Source of the DNA: Methylacidimicrobium sp. B4
GTDB taxonomy: Bacteria; Verrucomicrobiota; Verrucomicrobiia; Methylacidiphilales; Methylacidiphilaceae
NCBI RefSeq assembly: GCF_017310545.1
Contig: NZ_CP066203.1
Coordinates: 496,001 to 560,000, forward strand
DNA: 64,000 bases
Reading direction: 5' to 3'
The stretch's first letter is position 1. Every line of letters begins with the position of its first letter. A program made the position numbers and the translations under genes. The notes under the pieces were generated by a model, which saw nothing but the letters and a program-made list of their open reading frames with translations, had not been told where the DNA came from and searched no databases. Positions 25,481-33,758 of this stretch are shown one piece after another.

Positions 25481-25698
25481 TTCCCTTCCCATGAACACCC
25501 CCTGTTCTCGCCCGGGGGTCAATGCCTCGTGTCGTCGGGGAGTCATTTCCGGCTGTCGTCTGACAGAAGCGAATCGATAAGCCCAATTTGCAGACAAAGT
25601 TCCCTATCGAGGAGAAATCCGGATAGCGGTAAGATTCCGGGTGGAGCGAAGAAGAGTTGCGGAAGGCCGGAGGACGACAGGATACGGCAAAAAAGCGC

Positions 25699-26415
25699 AT
25701 GAAATTCGTCTCTTTCTTGGCCCGGAGAGAGTGGGCCCCCGTCTGGTCCGTTCTTGTCATTCTCTGGCTAGCCCCCGCGCTTCACGCGAACTGTACACAG
25801 GATGTTCAAGTAGTCTCCTCACGGAACTACTACACGCTCTTTCTCTCTTCGGGACGGACTGGGCTTCGGGAAGCGCTGCTGCGGGAGATTTCCCTCGACC
25901 GGTTCCGCAACTTTGGCTCAACTTGCGTAACTCCCGTCCATTGGAGGGAGCTCCCGGATCACCCCTATCTCGAATTGAGAACTTTGATTGATGGGAGACT
26001 GCTTCCGGTACGAAAAAGGAGCAATGGGTTTTGGACGCGCCTCACCTTTCCGGCTGGCCAGGAGATCGAACTCTGTAGGGACACCCTTCAGCAAGCTCTT
26101 GCGCGTAATTCCCAAGAAAAGATCGATTTCTTTGAAAATCTCATCGGGAGCGGCGGTTATCGGACTCCGATTGAGGACTACTGGGTCATTGTCGACCTTG
26201 GGAAGATCTACACTTCCTTCCTCCAGGTTGCCGCCATTGGCCAAGGCACGCCATCTTCGCCCACCTTCCAGGAATTCCTCAGCGGCCAGATAATCCAGAT
26301 ATTTCCGGGCGGATACCAGATCCAGGGAAATACAATCTGGTGGCACTGGCAGAAAATCTATGCTCCCAATTGGAGCACAAAGATCCACGTCGAATGGAAA
26401 GCTTGGTATCGGTAG
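25699..26415 (+). CDS. Hypothetical secreted protein
   Basis: 238 aa. A signal peptide (long hydrophobic segment WSVLVILWLAPALHA, then NC) precedes a mature part of about 205 residues with no recognised domain. The middle is moderately basic; the C-terminus is rich in aromatic residues (NTIWWHWQKIYAPNW, VEWKAWYR). Base composition here is nearer 50 % GC than the surrounding genes, which fits recent acquisition. A damaged paralogue lies at 28384-28741, sharing an almost identical stretch of about 40 bases around ALLREISLDRFRNF. The start at 25699 is set by the signal peptide. Confidence 0.55.
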   Translation: MKFVSFLARREWAPVWSVLVILWLAPALHANCTQDVQVVSSRNYYTLFLSSGRTGLREALLREISLDRFRNFGSTCVTPVHWRELPDHPYLELRTLIDGRLLPVRKRSNGFWTRLTFPAGQEIELCRDTLQQALARNSQEKIDFFENLIGSGGYRTPIEDYWVIVDLGKIYTSFLQVAAIGQGTPSSPTFQEFLSGQIIQIFPGGYQIQGNTIWWHWQKIYAPNWSTKIHVEWKAWYR

Positions 26416-26494
26416 GATATCAGCCTGCGGAAAAAGGGTTCGAACAGTTGAATGAATAGTTGCTAGTTCTTGCGCTTTCATGTATATTTTAAGC

Positions 26495-27124
26495 ATGTTA
26501 CGCAAGATGGTCAGCATCCATGAAGCCGCCGAGTTCCTGGGCGTCGCGGCGCAAACGCTGCGACGCTGGGAGCGCGAAGGCAAGCTCATCCCAGACGAAC
26601 GCACGCCGGGTGGACGGCGGCGCTATGACTTGGCGCGGCTTCGTCCTGAACAGTTCCATGCACCCGATGTAGCACGCCGCACGGTTGCCTACGCCCGCGT
26701 CTGCAGCCACGACCAGAAGGACGATCTGGAACGGCAGAAGCAGGTGCTCGAACTTTACTGCGCCCGGCAGGGCTGGACGTTCGAGGTCATCGCCGACCTG
26801 GGTTCGGGCATGAACTATCACAAGAAGGGCCTCAAGCGGCTGCTGGACGATGTGGTGGAAGGCCGCATCGGGCGGCTAGTCATCACGCACAAGGATCGGC
26901 TACTGCGCTTCGGCGCGGAACTGGTGTTCGCCATCTGCGAGGCCAAGGGCGTCGAGGTCGTCATCCTCAACCAAGGGGAAGACACGACGTTCGAGGAAGA
27001 CCTGGCGAAAGATGTGTTGGAGATCATCACGGTGTTCAGCGCCCGGCTGTACGGCAGCCGTTCGCGCAAGAATCAGAAGCTGCTCGACGGGGTGAAAGGC
27101 GCCGTGGAGGCGTCGCAATGCTGA
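26495..27124 (+). CDS. tnpA: IS607-family serine recombinase TnpA (catalytic Ser replaced by Cys)
   Basis: 209 aa. A MerR-like helix-turn-helix (VSIHEAAEFLGVAAQTLRRW, then GKLIPDERTPGGRRRY) is followed by a small serine-recombinase domain (VAYARVCSHDQKDDLERQ, GSGMNYHKKGLKRLLDD, ITHKDRLLRFG, VVILNQGED), the fixed domain order of IS607 TnpA. In the family the active Ser directly follows ARV; here that residue is Cys70 (codon TGC) and the Ser is one position later. Activity is therefore uncertain. An upstream in-frame ATG at 26480 is possible. The stop overlaps the tnpB start. Confidence 0.88.
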   Translation: MLRKMVSIHEAAEFLGVAAQTLRRWEREGKLIPDERTPGGRRRYDLARLRPEQFHAPDVARRTVAYARVCSHDQKDDLERQKQVLELYCARQGWTFEVIADLGSGMNYHKKGLKRLLDDVVEGRIGRLVITHKDRLLRFGAELVFAICEAKGVEVVILNQGEDTTFEEDLAKDVLEIITVFSARLYGSRSRKNQKLLDGVKGAVEASQC

Positions 27125-28314
27125 TCGCGCACCGCATCGCCCTCGATCCGAACAACGTGCAGGCGACGTATCTGGCCCGTGCGGCGGGCACGGCTCGGTT
27201 CGCCTACAACTGGGCGCTGGCCGAGTGGAAGCGCCAGTACGAGGCGTGGAAGGCCGACAACAGCCTGTCCAAGCCATCCCAGGCGGCGCTGCGCCGTCAG
27301 TTGAACGCGGTCAAGCGCGAGCAGTTCCCGTGGATGCTCGAAGTCACGAAGAAGGCGCCGCAGATGGCGATCATCCAGCTTGGCCAAGCGTTCCAGAACT
27401 TCTTCGCGGGTCGCGCCCGGTATCCACAATTTCGCAAAAAGGGCCGCGACGACCGTTTCACGCTCACCAACGACCAGTTCAGTCTCGACGGCTGCCGCAT
27501 GCGCATCCCCAACCTTGGCTGGGTGCGCATGCGCGAGTCGTTGCGTTTTCCTGGGAAGGTGATGTCGGCTACGGTCTCCCGTGTGGCCGACCGCTGGTTC
27601 GTCCGCATCGTTGTCGAGATGCCGGAGGGTTTGCGTCCGCCAGAAGCCGAAAGCCAAGGCGTGGTTGGCGTGGATCTGGGCGTCTGGGCGCTGGCGACGC
27701 TCTCGACAGGGGAGAAGGTGCCTGGCCCCGAGCCGCCCAAGGCGCGGCTGGGCCGCTTGCGCAGGCTCTCGCGGAGCCTGAGCCGCAAGAGGAAGGGGTC
27801 GGCCAACCGGCGCAAGGCCAAGGAGAAGCTGGCGAGGCTGCACGCCCGAATCACCAATGGCCGCCTGGACGCCCTGCACAAGCAGTCGGCTGGCCTCAGG
27901 CGCCGGTTTTCGCTCATCGGCGTCGAGGGCCTGAACGTGCGCGGCATGATGGGCAACCGGCGTCTGGCCCGGTCGATCGGCGACATGGGCTTCTTCGAGT
28001 TCCGGCGGCCGCTGGAGTACAAGGCCGCTATGCGGGGCGGAGAGGTGGTGGTCGCCGATCGGTTCTTCTCCAGCAGCAAGACCTGCTCCCACTGCGGCCA
28101 TTGGCTGGAGAGCTTGCCGCTCTCGGTGCGTCAGTGGACCTGTCCGGCCTGCGGCGCGGAGCATGACCGGGACGTGAACGCCGCGATGAATCTCAAGAAT
28201 GTGGCCGTGAGTTCCACGGTGTCAGCCTGTGGAGAGGAGGGCTCTGGCTCGGCATGCAAGCGCCGGGTGAAACCAGCCTCGGCGAAGCAGGAAGTCGGCT
28301 TTGTTCCTGTTTAG
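27118..28314 (+). CDS. tnpB: IS607-associated TnpB (RNA-guided nuclease)
   Basis: 398 aa. N-terminal recognition region with FAYNWALAEWKRQYEAW and FPQFRKKG-like YPQFRKKGRDD; RuvC catalytic residues Asp186 (VVGVDLGVW), Glu270 (IGVEGLNVRGM) and Asp352 (HDRDVNAAMNL); Zn finger from Cys323/Cys326 and Cys342/Cys345. All key residues are intact, so it is probably active as an omega-RNA guided DNA endonuclease. It overlaps tnpA by seven bases. The last 40 codons (CGEEGSGSACKRRV onward) follow the pattern where the omega-RNA scaffold overlaps the 3' end of tnpB. Confidence 0.93.
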   Translation: MLIAHRIALDPNNVQATYLARAAGTARFAYNWALAEWKRQYEAWKADNSLSKPSQAALRRQLNAVKREQFPWMLEVTKKAPQMAIIQLGQAFQNFFAGRARYPQFRKKGRDDRFTLTNDQFSLDGCRMRIPNLGWVRMRESLRFPGKVMSATVSRVADRWFVRIVVEMPEGLRPPEAESQGVVGVDLGVWALATLSTGEKVPGPEPPKARLGRLRRLSRSLSRKRKGSANRRKAKEKLARLHARITNGRLDALHKQSAGLRRRFSLIGVEGLNVRGMMGNRRLARSIGDMGFFEFRRPLEYKAAMRGGEVVVADRFFSSSKTCSHCGHWLESLPLSVRQWTCPACGAEHDRDVNAAMNLKNVAVSSTVSACGEEGSGSACKRRVKPASAKQEVGFVPV

Positions 28315-28383: not shown

Positions 28384-28741
28384 ATGAAACCGATCCCTTC
28401 ATGGTCGCAGCAGGGATGGGCCCTGCTCTGATCCACTCTTCTCATCCTCTGGACAGCTTCCCCGCGCCCCGCGCAGAGTGTACATCAGAGGCGATTCGAC
28501 CTGTCGCCATGCGACGGTGCTACAGGCTCTTTCTCTCTCCAGGGCAAAAAGGACCGCGGGGAGCGCTGCTGCGGGAGATTTCCCTCGACCGGTTCCGCAA
28601 CTTCAGATCCGCCGGCATGGCCTCCCTCTATAGAGAGGAGGCTCCCGAGCTCCCCTTTCTCGAATTCCGCGGCTCGATCGAGAGCGATGCCGAGTTCGCG
28701 CCATTGGCAAGACCGCCTTTGGATCAGGGAGTAAAGAACGC
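28384..28741 (+). pseudogene. Broken paralogue of the secreted protein at 25.7 kb
   Basis: From an ATG at 28384 the frame gives a signal-like start (MKPIPSWSQQGWALL) that hits a TGA, continues as STLLILWTA, and then homology shifts to another frame with YRLFLSPGQ and ALLREISLDRFRNF, matching the gene at 25699. Similarity continues to about 28690 (LPFLEF against HPYLEL). Beyond it the reading frame is cut at 28741 by the IS1595-like element. So the copy has an in-frame stop, a frameshift and an insertion. Confidence 0.65.
28734..28741. repeat. Target-site duplication, left copy (AAGAACGC)
   Basis: AAGAACGC immediately precedes the left inverted repeat and recurs exactly after the right inverted repeat at 30664-30671. 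Eight bases is the duplication length known for the IS1595 family. Confidence 0.85.
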
Positions 28742-28769
28742 CGGGACTATCGGCTTGACGCAGACCGCC
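28742..28769 (+). repeat. Left terminal inverted repeat
   Basis: Gapless match to the reverse complement of 30636-30663 at 21 of 28 positions; positions 5-11 (ACTATCG) and 14-18 (TTGAC) are identical in both ends. Confidence 0.8.
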
Positions 28770-28789
28770 ACCATCCCTAGATCCTGATC

Positions 28790-29083
28790 ATGATCGGCAC
28801 CGCCCTCACGTTCCGCGCCTTCCCCGATCTCTTCCCGGACGAGGACGCCGCGCGGGCGTGGTTTGAGCGCGCCCGCTGGCCGGACGGCCCGATCTGCCCG
28901 GTGTGCGGATGCGTCAACCACGCTTCCTGGCTGCGGACGATCCGCCGCTGGCAATGCACCACCTGCCACCGACAGTTCTCGGTCACCGCTGGCACGCCGA
29001 TGCACCGCACCCACCTCCCGATGCTCACCCGGGGCGGCGTTGGGCGCACGCTGCCTTACCGCTTTCTCACGGGAACCGCCTGA
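28790..29083 (+). CDS. Zinc-ribbon N-terminal stub of an IS1595 (ISXO2-like) transposase
   Basis: 97 aa. LTFRAFPDLFPDEDAARAWF, then ARWPDGPICPVCG with the first Cys pair, WQCTTCHRQFSVTAGT with the second, then the start of the linker (PMHRTHLPM). This is the complete transposase zinc-ribbon (ZnR_1595 type) domain; in full-length relatives the DDE_ISXO2 domain follows after the THLPL-x-W linker. Here the sequence changes to an unrelated 25-residue tail (LTRGGVGRTLPYRFLTGTA). The four Zn ligands are intact, so a DNA-binding protein could be made. Its stop and the tnpB start form TGATG, suggesting coupled translation. Confidence 0.75.
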   Translation: MIGTALTFRAFPDLFPDEDAARAWFERARWPDGPICPVCGCVNHASWLRTIRRWQCTTCHRQFSVTAGTPMHRTHLPMLTRGGVGRTLPYRFLTGTA

Positions 29084-30645
29084 TGGCCCGCACCAAGCCC
29101 GAGCATCCGCCCGTCCATCGGACCGACCTGCTGCCGTCGAACCTGACGGCCAGCAAAGAGGCGGCCGTGCGCGCGCTGCTCAGAGCCTACCGCCGGGGTG
29201 CGGTGCTGCTGGGCCGGGAAGAGTGGCGGCTCTTCTTCGAGACGGGCCGCTTGGAGAAGAACCACGACGTGGACAAGGTCACCTTCGCTGCCGTCATCGG
29301 CGCGGCCAACCGCGTCCAGATGGCCCGCTGGCAGGTCGTCGGGCAGCTCCAGGGCTGGATCGGCAACCGGGCCAATGAGTTTCGAGACCTGGTCAACCAC
29401 AGCACGCTGCCACCCGCCACCAAGCAGATGCTCCACGCCATCAACGGCCTGGGCGCGTGGTTCTGGCGCGGCGAGGTGGCGAGGAGAGAGACGGGCGAGG
29501 TGATTCCGGTCTCCGTGCGACGGCTGGCGCGCGCCATGATGCGCCACTGCATGGCGCGGCATCGCCGCCCGGACCTCTCGCGCATCTCCATGCGCCTCGA
29601 CCACCGCGCGGGGAGCATCGCCCGCCCCATCCAGGCGACGCAGCGCGGCAGGGTCGGCTGGTGGGTGAGCCTCTCCACGCTCGAGAAGGGGCGCAAGATC
29701 GCCATCCCGCTGCTCACCTACGACTACCATGCCAAGCGCCCTGGCCGCGTGACCAACGGCATCCAGGTGAACGAGCGCGAGGGTCGCCTGAGCTTCGGCG
29801 TGGTGACCGACATGGGCGAGGTCTGCGCCAAAAGCCGCGCCGCCTACGACGGCCACGGCGCGCTGGCGCTTGATTTTGGGCTGTCCACGCTCTTGGCCAC
29901 ATCCGATGGCCGGCTGCTCGGCCAGGGCTGGCTCAAGCGGCTCAAGCGGTACGACGCGCTGCTTGCCGTGATCGCGGCCAGCCAGCAGCGTGCCGGACGC
30001 AGGCCGCGGGAGAGCCAGCGGTATCGGGCGCTGGTGGAGGACGTGCGCGGCTTCCTTCGCACCGAGGTTGGCCGCGTGCTCAACCGCCTTGTCGAGCAGG
30101 GCAAGCCCAAGGAGTTGGTGCTGGAGCGGCTCGACTTCCGCCACCCCGACCTCTCAAGGCGGCTCAACGCGATCCTGCGCAACTGCGGACGCTCGATCGT
30201 CCAGGAGAAGTTGCGCGACCTGGAGGAGCGCTTCGGAATCCCCTCCGCCGAGGTCAACGCCGCATACACCTCTCAGGCATGTTCCGGTTGCGGCTATGTG
30301 GACAAGCGGAACCGCCGCGACCAGAAGACCTTCGTCTGCCGTTGGTGCGGTCACCACATGCACGCCGACCTCAATGCGGCGGCCAACATCGAAGCGCGCC
30401 GTGCGCGCCCCAATGGTTGGCTCTTCCAGGGGAAGGCTGCGGTCCTTGCCGAGCTCGTGCGCGAGTTCGGGGAGCGACCTGTCCGGGCGCTGGGCCTGGG
30501 CAGAACCGGGAGCCGGGGTGCCCCCGCCGACCCACGATCCACCAATCCCTACTTCGGTGGAGTGCCGTTGCCCGTGGTGAGGTCATCCGAACGCCGCGAG
30601 GCGTCCATGAAATCGCCCGATCCTCCAGCCCTTGTGGCTGCCTGA
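29083..30645 (+). CDS. TnpB-like RNA-guided nuclease within the IS1595-like element
   Basis: 520 aa, much longer than the IS607 TnpB next door and only distantly similar. RuvC residues: Asp264 (GALALDFGLSTLLA), Glu348 (LVLERLDF), Asp429 (HHMHADLNAAANIE); Zn finger Cys400/Cys403 and Cys419/Cys422. The central region (residues 140-250) is beta-rich and fits the recognition domain of TnpB/Cas12f-like proteins. All catalytic residues are present. The last 75 residues are low complexity and the stop codon lies inside the right inverted repeat. It starts on the TGATG overlap with the zinc-ribbon gene. No CRISPR array is nearby. Confidence 0.85.
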   Translation: MARTKPEHPPVHRTDLLPSNLTASKEAAVRALLRAYRRGAVLLGREEWRLFFETGRLEKNHDVDKVTFAAVIGAANRVQMARWQVVGQLQGWIGNRANEFRDLVNHSTLPPATKQMLHAINGLGAWFWRGEVARRETGEVIPVSVRRLARAMMRHCMARHRRPDLSRISMRLDHRAGSIARPIQATQRGRVGWWVSLSTLEKGRKIAIPLLTYDYHAKRPGRVTNGIQVNEREGRLSFGVVTDMGEVCAKSRAAYDGHGALALDFGLSTLLATSDGRLLGQGWLKRLKRYDALLAVIAASQQRAGRRPRESQRYRALVEDVRGFLRTEVGRVLNRLVEQGKPKELVLERLDFRHPDLSRRLNAILRNCGRSIVQEKLRDLEERFGIPSAEVNAAYTSQACSGCGYVDKRNRRDQKTFVCRWCGHHMHADLNAAANIEARRARPNGWLFQGKAAVLAELVREFGERPVRALGLGRTGSRGAPADPRSTNPYFGGVPLPVVRSSERREASMKSPDPPALVAA

Positions 30646-30663
30646 GTCAACGCGATAGTACCC
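30636..30663 (-). repeat. Right terminal inverted repeat
   Basis: Reverse complement pairs with 28742-28769. It contains the TGA stop of the tnpB-like gene at 30643-30645, so coding sequence extends into the transposon end. Confidence 0.8.
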
Positions 30664-30671
30664 AAGAACGC
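30664..30671. repeat. Target-site duplication, right copy (AAGAACGC)
   Basis: Exact copy of 28734-28741. The next 164 bases, up to merE, hold no recognised gene. Confidence 0.85.
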
Positions 30672-30835
30672 AGCACTCCTTGCGCGCCGATGGCGAGGAA
30701 GGCCCAACAGAGAGTAAGGGTCCCGCCGCGAGCCCTGCCTTCCCCAAGGTCTCGCCCCCAATCTCCCCGGCCAGGCCAAATCCCAAGCGGCTACGCCAGA
30801 GCGGTTGAGGCAACGGCGGGCGCTCGGGGCCCTCT

Positions 30836-31253: not shown

Positions 31254-33068
<1,815 letters not shown>

Positions 33069-33344
33069 TCACGGCTTGACGCTCGAGGGATAGCCCGCAT
33101 CCTTGGTCGCCTTGGTGAGCTTCTCCACGCTGGTCTTGGTGTCATCGAAGGTGACGACCACTTCCCGCTTCTTGGGCTCCACGTCGATCCGGCTCACCCC
33201 CTCGACCTTGGAGAGCGCCTTCTTGACCGTGATCGGGCAGGCCGCACAGGTCATGCCGGGCACGAAGAGCGTCACGGTTTGGGTTGCGGCCCAAACGGGG
33301 GCAACGACGGCACTCAGGGCGATAGCAATCAGTAGTTTCTTCAT
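33069..33344 (-). CDS. merP: Periplasmic mercury-binding protein
   Basis: 91 aa. A signal peptide (MKKLLIAIALSAVVAPVWA) precedes one HMA domain with GMTCAACPITVKKAL (Cys-x2-Cys Hg site). It collects Hg(II) in the periplasm and passes it to MerT. It lies between merT and merA with 13 bases to merT, in the usual order. Confidence 0.95.
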   Translation of the reverse strand: MKKLLIAIALSAVVAPVWAATQTVTLFVPGMTCAACPITVKKALSKVEGVSRIDVEPKKREVVVTFDDTKTSVEKLTKATKDAGYPSSVKP

Positions 33345-33357
33345 GGCAAGCTCCCGA

Positions 33358-33723
33358 TCAGTAGAAGAGTGGCAACAGGTAGGGAAAAACGAGCGCGACC
33401 ACGATCAGCGCGGCCACGACCCAGAAGATCCACTTGTAGGCGGTCCGAACGCGAGGAACCGCGCAGACCTCGCCCTCCTTGCAGGCGCTCGTCCGCCGGA
33501 AGATGCTTCGCCAAGCGAAGAAGAGCGAGACCAGCGCCGCGAAGATGAAGATTGGCCGGTAGGGCTCAAGCACGGTCAAATTGCCGATCCAGGCGCCGCT
33601 CAGGCCCAGGGCCACCAAGAGCAAGGGCCCCAAGCAGCAGCTCAAGGCGAGGATGGCGGCCAGCCCGCCAGCCAGCAGGGCACCGACCCTGTTTTTCGAT
33701 TCTACCTTTTGGGATTCCGACAT
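33358..33723 (-). CDS. merT: Mercuric ion transporter
   Basis: 121 aa with three membrane helices. LAAILALSCCLGPLLLVALG holds the Cys-Cys pair of helix 1; SACKEGEVCAVP is the second, cytoplasmic-loop pair; the third helix ends VFPYLLPLFY. It moves Hg(II) across the inner membrane to MerA. The start at 33723 has GGAG six bases upstream; 33735 is in frame. The first residues (MSESQKVESKN) are nearly repeated by the small gene upstream. Confidence 0.94.
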   Translation of the reverse strand: MSESQKVESKNRVGALLAGGLAAILALSCCLGPLLLVALGLSGAWIGNLTVLEPYRPIFIFAALVSLFFAWRSIFRRTSACKEGEVCAVPRVRTAYKWIFWVVAALIVVALVFPYLLPLFY

Positions 33724-33758
33724 GCGCTTCTCCAATCGAGGCTTCGCTTTCTATGATC

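Follow-up and report, generated by a model that had tools for sequence, protein, structure and literature searches.

The IS1595 family, represented by ISRm32, ISPepr2 and ISEc69, combines a zinc ribbon and a DDE domain in its transposase, duplicates 8 bp of its target and shows a T|A edge at its insertion sites; in experiments, ISEc69 inserted into AT-rich targets of 8 bp, with the insertion point lying between a T and an A (PMC7835479). IS200/IS605 elements with TnpB use a Y1 single-strand transposase and make no target duplication; they have hairpin ends, a motif beside the left end and an omega-RNA that stops at the right end. IS607 elements with TnpB rely on a serine recombinase and do not duplicate their target either. 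In eukaryotes, the TnpB homologues Fanzor1 and Fanzor2 occur in DDE transposons with inverted repeats and target duplications; Fanzor descends from a cyanobacterial IS607 pro-Fanzor clade and has eukaryotic or viral hosts. Cas12 and the CRISPR-associated transposons also bring together a RuvC effector and a transposon. Here, we describe an element with IS1595-type ends and a TnpB gene, found in a stretch of 64,000 nucleotides from the genome of Methylacidimicrobium sp. B4 (contig NZ_CP066203.1), the whole of which is called the window below.

The family to which this element belongs shares with other IS1595 elements the domains of the transposase, the 8-bp duplication, similar termini and the T|A edge, but adds tnpB and a predicted right-end omega-RNA, and has TA only on the left. 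Its TnpB, its putative omega-RNA, which stops at the right end, and a motif beside the left end recall IS200/IS605, and its closest outside TnpBs are IS607-associated (Thermus, Bifidobacterium); unlike both of these groups, it has a DDE transposase and an 8-bp duplication. It differs from the Fanzor elements in being bacterial and in that a variable 8-bp duplication seemingly lies in the guide, whereas in Fanzor DDE transposons the duplication is placed in the RNA scaffold (PMC10711439). In contrast to CRISPR-associated transposons, there is no sign of guided insertion here, as duplications and sites vary. The one paper found to use the terms IS1595 and TnpB repeatedly describes no such element, although loci of this kind may be listed in surveys published in subscription journals. 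The parts are of known kinds, while the combination of IS1595 with TnpB and the proposed use of the variable duplication as guide appear to be new. We favour the view, with a probability of roughly 0.75, that this is an IS1595 DDE transposon that captured TnpB and is retained through omega-RNA-guided re-cutting of empty sites.

An earlier note, made from the letters of this DNA, had proposed a 1922-bp unit with 28-bp ends matching at 21/28 and a perfect 8-bp repeat (AAGAACGC), holding a zinc-ribbon stub and an intact TnpB, and all of this was reproduced (Table 1). The 97-aa open reading frame (ORF) matches a single domain, the zinc ribbon of IS1595 transposases (PF12760, 5.9e-13). The 520-aa ORF matches the TnpB/Cas12f TNB domain (PF07282, 5.2e-16) and, under the cut-off of that model, guided_TnpB (7.8e-23); its RuvC residues D264, E348 and D429 are invariant across relatives and the CxxC/CxxC zinc finger of TNB is conserved. 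The tnpB start overlaps the stop of the stub as TGATG. The window copy has no full transposase of its own, the catalytic domain having been lost by an in-frame deletion.

A genome search revealed six copies with common termini in the 2.37-Mb genome, the window copy included. Copies with these ends, which the earlier note had asked to look for, thus lie at five further sites, and the window element is not a chance arrangement. Five of the six copies have perfect 8-bp duplications and the sixth matches at 7/8. In two copies (L011 and L012, 2576 bp each), the transposase frame is open over about 315 aa; compared to these, the transposase gene is shortened by 654 bp in the window copy and L010, by 438 bp in L013 and by 444 bp in L014. 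Because these fuller copies share its termini, the window copy is, as judged from the alignment, an internal-deletion derivative of a two-gene element and would be non-autonomous, with L011 and L012 as possible sources of transposase in trans, as had been suggested. The idea that TnpB stands in place of a transposase as a rule is not supported, as the parental element has both genes, here as well as in two elements from elsewhere described below (L136 and the Salipiger element L042).

The intact duplication had also been taken as proof that the deleted unit moved as such; this does not follow, as the 654 bp could have been lost when the element was already at its present site. The deletion of the window copy is also present, with one junction base different, in L010, which lies at another site within its own perfect duplication; this fits movement in trans. 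However, synonymous divergence (dS) in tnpB places the window copy nearer to L012 (0.013) than to L010 (0.026), and gene conversion or recurrent deletion may explain the shared deletion. To look for empty sites, the joined 200-bp flanks of each copy were compared with genomes of the genus. For five of the six insertions, an uninterrupted counterpart in which the 8 bp occur only once was found in Verrucomicrobia bacterium LP2A; none was found for the window copy itself. The empty site of L011 suggests that a mutation arose in the left copy of its duplication once the element had inserted. In the LP2A empty sites, TA already stands at the position left of the 8 bp, indicating that it belongs to the target.

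LP2A itself contains six copies with the same ends, and two other genomes of the genus hold additional copies or fragments. Two of the LP2A copies (L034 and L036) share the same 438-bp transposase deletion, lack a matching duplication and both have ATA on the left. Further members occur in Azospirillaceae, namely A. oryzae A2P, two more genomes of the order and two Indioceanicola plasmids. On plasmid pTPRO6 of Salipiger profundus (L042), an IS1595 transposase directly precedes a TnpB that shares 43% identity with that of the window, and the element is bounded by ACGGCAGG as an 8/8 duplication. A search of a viral collection added one complete element (L136, IMGVR_UViG_3300025534_000004), with a 319-aa transposase, TnpB and an 8/8 duplication, TTTGAGCC. 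Both PF12760 and PF12762 (zinc ribbon and ISXO2-like DDE) are found in the transposases of L136 and L042. Broad searches of 385 Alphaproteobacteria and of 388 genomes of the window's phylum gave no members beyond the starting genomes, and no convincing ends of IS1595 elements were found in Indioceanicola, G003, G006 and LP2A. The elements contain neither a serine recombinase nor a Y1 transposase, the transposase being IS1595 DDE, and every complete TnpB copy examined sits between the element's own ends.

In a protein tree built without Fanzor or pro-Fanzor sequences, the IS1595-associated TnpBs cluster with a support of 84/94, nested in a larger group in which the remaining members of known context are IS607-type elements, from Thermus, a Thermus phage (its context resting on the annotated name) and Bifidobacterium. 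The simplest reading, with moderate support, is that an IS1595 transposon captured TnpB once from the IS607 lineage. A related TnpB (35%) on a plasmid of M. intracellulare subsp. chimaera (L044) has only small helix-turn-helix ORFs upstream and is possibly an IS607 relic.

The right end of the element carries the signature of a structured RNA. Among five TnpB genes whose proteins are 72–82% identical to that of the window, synonymous differences per comparable codon fall from 0.40 in the tnpB body to 0.20 in the last 100 codons (permutation p <5e-5), the lowest 100-codon window of the body being 0.317. Across twelve elements, the terminal 320 nt share a fold with 37 double-change cells, compared to 13.0 +/- 2.5 in shuffled controls and at most 7 when the partners were slid. 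The predicted pairing extends into the right inverted repeat, where GCGAT pairs with ATCGC; in other genomes, the two sides change jointly, giving pairs of the TTGAT/ATCAG type. A covariance model (R1), built on the last 150 nt without L136, finds the L136 element with a match ending exactly at its right end. In G132, the 3' end is conserved at the nucleotide level despite a lost protein frame. Model R1 had no match in the IS607 relatives, and an Rfam search of the element's 3' end gave nothing convincing. Given the low synonymous divergence and the strong covariation up to the right end, we predict that the 3' end of tnpB encodes an RNA with the position and form of an omega-RNA, ending exactly at the right end of the element.

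These features lead us to propose the following cycle. The IS1595 transposase, supplied in trans by fuller copies in the case of the window copy, would insert the element with an 8-bp duplication, and TnpB would be made by translational coupling to the transposase frame. The omega-RNA from the 3' end of tnpB would guide TnpB and, by reading through the right end, would take the 8-bp duplication and the right flank as its guide. The target would be an element-free site, either the donor from which the element has excised or a sister copy without the insertion, in which R-T-A (RTA, with A or G as R) lies just 5' of the sequence matching the guide; the filled site would be spared since there the ...ACCC of the element itself takes the place of RTA. 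Cutting of the empty site would then allow recombination to copy the element back. On balance, it seems probable to us that this DDE cut-and-paste transposon survives excision by means of TnpB, with a guide that begins in the 8-bp duplication, an RTA supplied by the target and retention of one orientation.

The insertion sites bear on this directly. Of 19 independent insertions, 11 have ATA and 8 have GTA immediately left of the duplication, so that RTA is present in 19/19, while TA directly to the right was found in 0/19 of these TnpB-carrying elements. Perfect duplications accompany 12 of the 19 insertions and 14 match at 7/8 or better. As a control, we used TnpB-less insertions, 14 of ISRm32 type and one ISPepr2, in which TA lies on the left in 7/15 and on the right in 8/15 (Fisher p=0.0008 for sidedness compared to the TnpB-carrying elements), it being noted that some control sites share a repeated target and are not all fully independent. 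One-sided RTA is what TnpB-dependent retention would predict, and we read RTA as the putative target-adjacent motif of TnpB. A Methylocalor IS1595 locus (L100), a candidate for a closer TnpB-less control, yielded no ends. Among the ISRm32-type elements, those of a Neorhizobium sp. EC2-8 plasmid (L111, L118, L134 and L135) are tandem copies with the 8-bp TCGTACGC between them and at the outer ends, and those in Sinorhizobium plasmids (L110, L115, L117, L123 and L124) have inserted, in either orientation, into almost the same target sequence (CGATACAT / ATGTATCG), a repeated hot spot.

Several observations weigh against retention by TnpB. The control transposases are only ~36–39% identical. Three insertions (L034, L036 and L046) have no duplications and two (L037 and L040) only partial ones. 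Model R1 did not find an RNA in Salipiger, and an AlphaFold model from seven sequences (predicted local distance difference test score, pLDDT, of 42) was discarded as too poor. Moreover, as IS1595 transposases like a T|A edge themselves, they may account for some of the RTA signal. The strongest rival extends this last point, RTA being an asymmetric target preference of the transposase and TnpB a passenger that has another motif or is inactive. Both ISEc69 (PMC7835479) and the TnpB-less ISRm32-type transposases prefer this edge, so the taste for T|A belongs to the transposases, and the two ends of the element are unequal (21/28). Fixation on the left is, however, new: TA is two-sided in the control, and the right-hand A/T preference is gone in the TnpB-carrying elements. 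The conserved RuvC residues, the conserved RNA and the in-frame deletions described below also speak for a working TnpB, and we consider the passenger explanation unlikely.

The pattern of deletions provides a further argument for TnpB. TnpB ORFs are intact in 12/12 copies of the window's genome and LP2A, where near-full-length transposases remain in 5/12 (L011, L012, L032, L035 and L037). All 11 distinct transposase deletions of at least 6 nt are multiples of three, which would arise by chance about 6 times in a million if they are independent; a gap of 8 nt where L090 begins, being an element edge, was not counted as a deletion, and the more degenerate L040 and L046 stand outside the count. 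Five of the 11 span 438–669 nt and take out all or part of the catalytic core, and small deletions (6–51 nt; L091 and L090) are likewise in frame. The sole frame break inside the transposase gene among the aligned copies is a 2-nt insertion in L033. Since the transposase frame is kept into the TGATG start of tnpB, the data point to a probable coupling of tnpB translation to that frame. The frame might instead be kept because zinc-ribbon products serve as transposition repressors, which would be compatible with retention by TnpB. The zinc ribbon is indeed preserved in all deletions of the window's genome and LP2A, but the small deletions elsewhere are also in frame and the feature common to all is the frame into TGATG, making the repressor explanation quite improbable.

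A decaying IS1595 element, with TnpB hitch-hiking and a dead window copy, would account for the 7/12 broken or deleted transposases in the two genomes and for the degenerate L040. This is very hard to reconcile with the uniformly intact TnpB ORFs, a ratio of nonsynonymous to synonymous divergence (dN/dS) of 0.24–0.62 among the genome's own TnpB copies, the 11/11 in-frame deletions and the nucleotide conservation in frame-lost G132, and we give decay hardly any weight. It is just as improbable that TnpB acts as an RNA-guided regulator, as do the nuclease-dead TnpB relatives called TldR, or in defence against competing elements rather than in retention: additional roles are compatible with the sequence, but the catalytic D264/E348/D429 are retained and the predicted guide, being the insertion flank, differs in each copy. 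Because of the omega-RNA signal, the in-frame deletions, the intact ORFs and the one-sided RTA, we favour TnpB as a working part of the element, presumably through DNA cleavage.

Table 1. Features of the IS1595-TnpB element and its flanks (positions in the window).
Feature	Position	Strand	Basis
GTA, putative TnpB target-adjacent motif (RTA)	28731..28733	+	RTA on the left in 19/19 insertions
8-bp target duplication AAGAACGC, left copy	28734..28741		Sequence; same architecture in other copies
IS1595-TnpB element, deletion derivative, 1922 bp	28742..30663	+	Six copies in the genome with the same ends
Left terminal inverted repeat	28742..28769	+	21/28 match to right end; conserved in other copies
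IS1595 transposase stub (zinc ribbon and C-terminal tail)	28790..29083	+	PF12760; 654-bp in-frame deletion compared to L011/L012
TnpB nuclease, 520 aa, RuvC D264/E348/D429	29083..30645	+	PF07282; residue alignment
Predicted omega-RNA scaffold, overlapping the tnpB 3' end and stopping at the right end	30344..30663	+	Synonymous divergence, covariation, model R1
Right terminal inverted repeat; GCGAT pairs with ATCGC of the predicted omega-RNA	30636..30663	+	Sequence and covariation
Right copy of the 8-bp target duplication; would form the first 8 nt of the guide	30664..30671		Sequence; guide role proposed
Right flank, predicted rest of ~20-nt guide	30672..30683	+	Expected from TnpB/omega-RNA architecture; length from known TnpBs

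A separate IS607 element (26480–28314), with a serine recombinase (26480–27124) and a 398-aa TnpB (27118–28314), lies to the left of the IS1595-TnpB element, from which it is separated by ~430 bp. Within it, an Rfam match to RAGATH-18 that falls below the threshold (28226–28293; 24.4 bits, E 0.17) may represent its omega-RNA. Partial paralogues sharing ..LLREISLDRFRNF.. (25657–26415 and 28401–28787) flank this IS607 element, and the IS1595-TnpB element sits in the second of them; more stretches similar to these paralogues are present in the same genome and in LP2A. That the repeats stem from such paralogous fragments to the left of the element was rejected, since the same ends occur at five other sites. 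To the right, on the minus strand, ORFs for a MerA-like reductase with an N-terminal heavy-metal-associated (HMA) domain, a MerP-like and a MerT-like protein (31254–33735) form, judging by their sequences, a probable mercury-resistance cluster.

Taken together, our observations support the earlier proposal of a new RNA-guided transposon type, as a candidate. The pairing of a DDE transposase with TnpB has so far been reported only for eukaryotic TnpB relatives, to which IS1595-TnpB is a bacterial counterexample. This suggests that TnpB can leave its usual recombinases if the target edge of the new transposase serves as its motif. Moreover, elements with and without TnpB offer a natural comparison of how the nuclease affects the distribution and orientation of insertion sites, and the family supplies a 520-aa TnpB with a predicted short motif, RTA.
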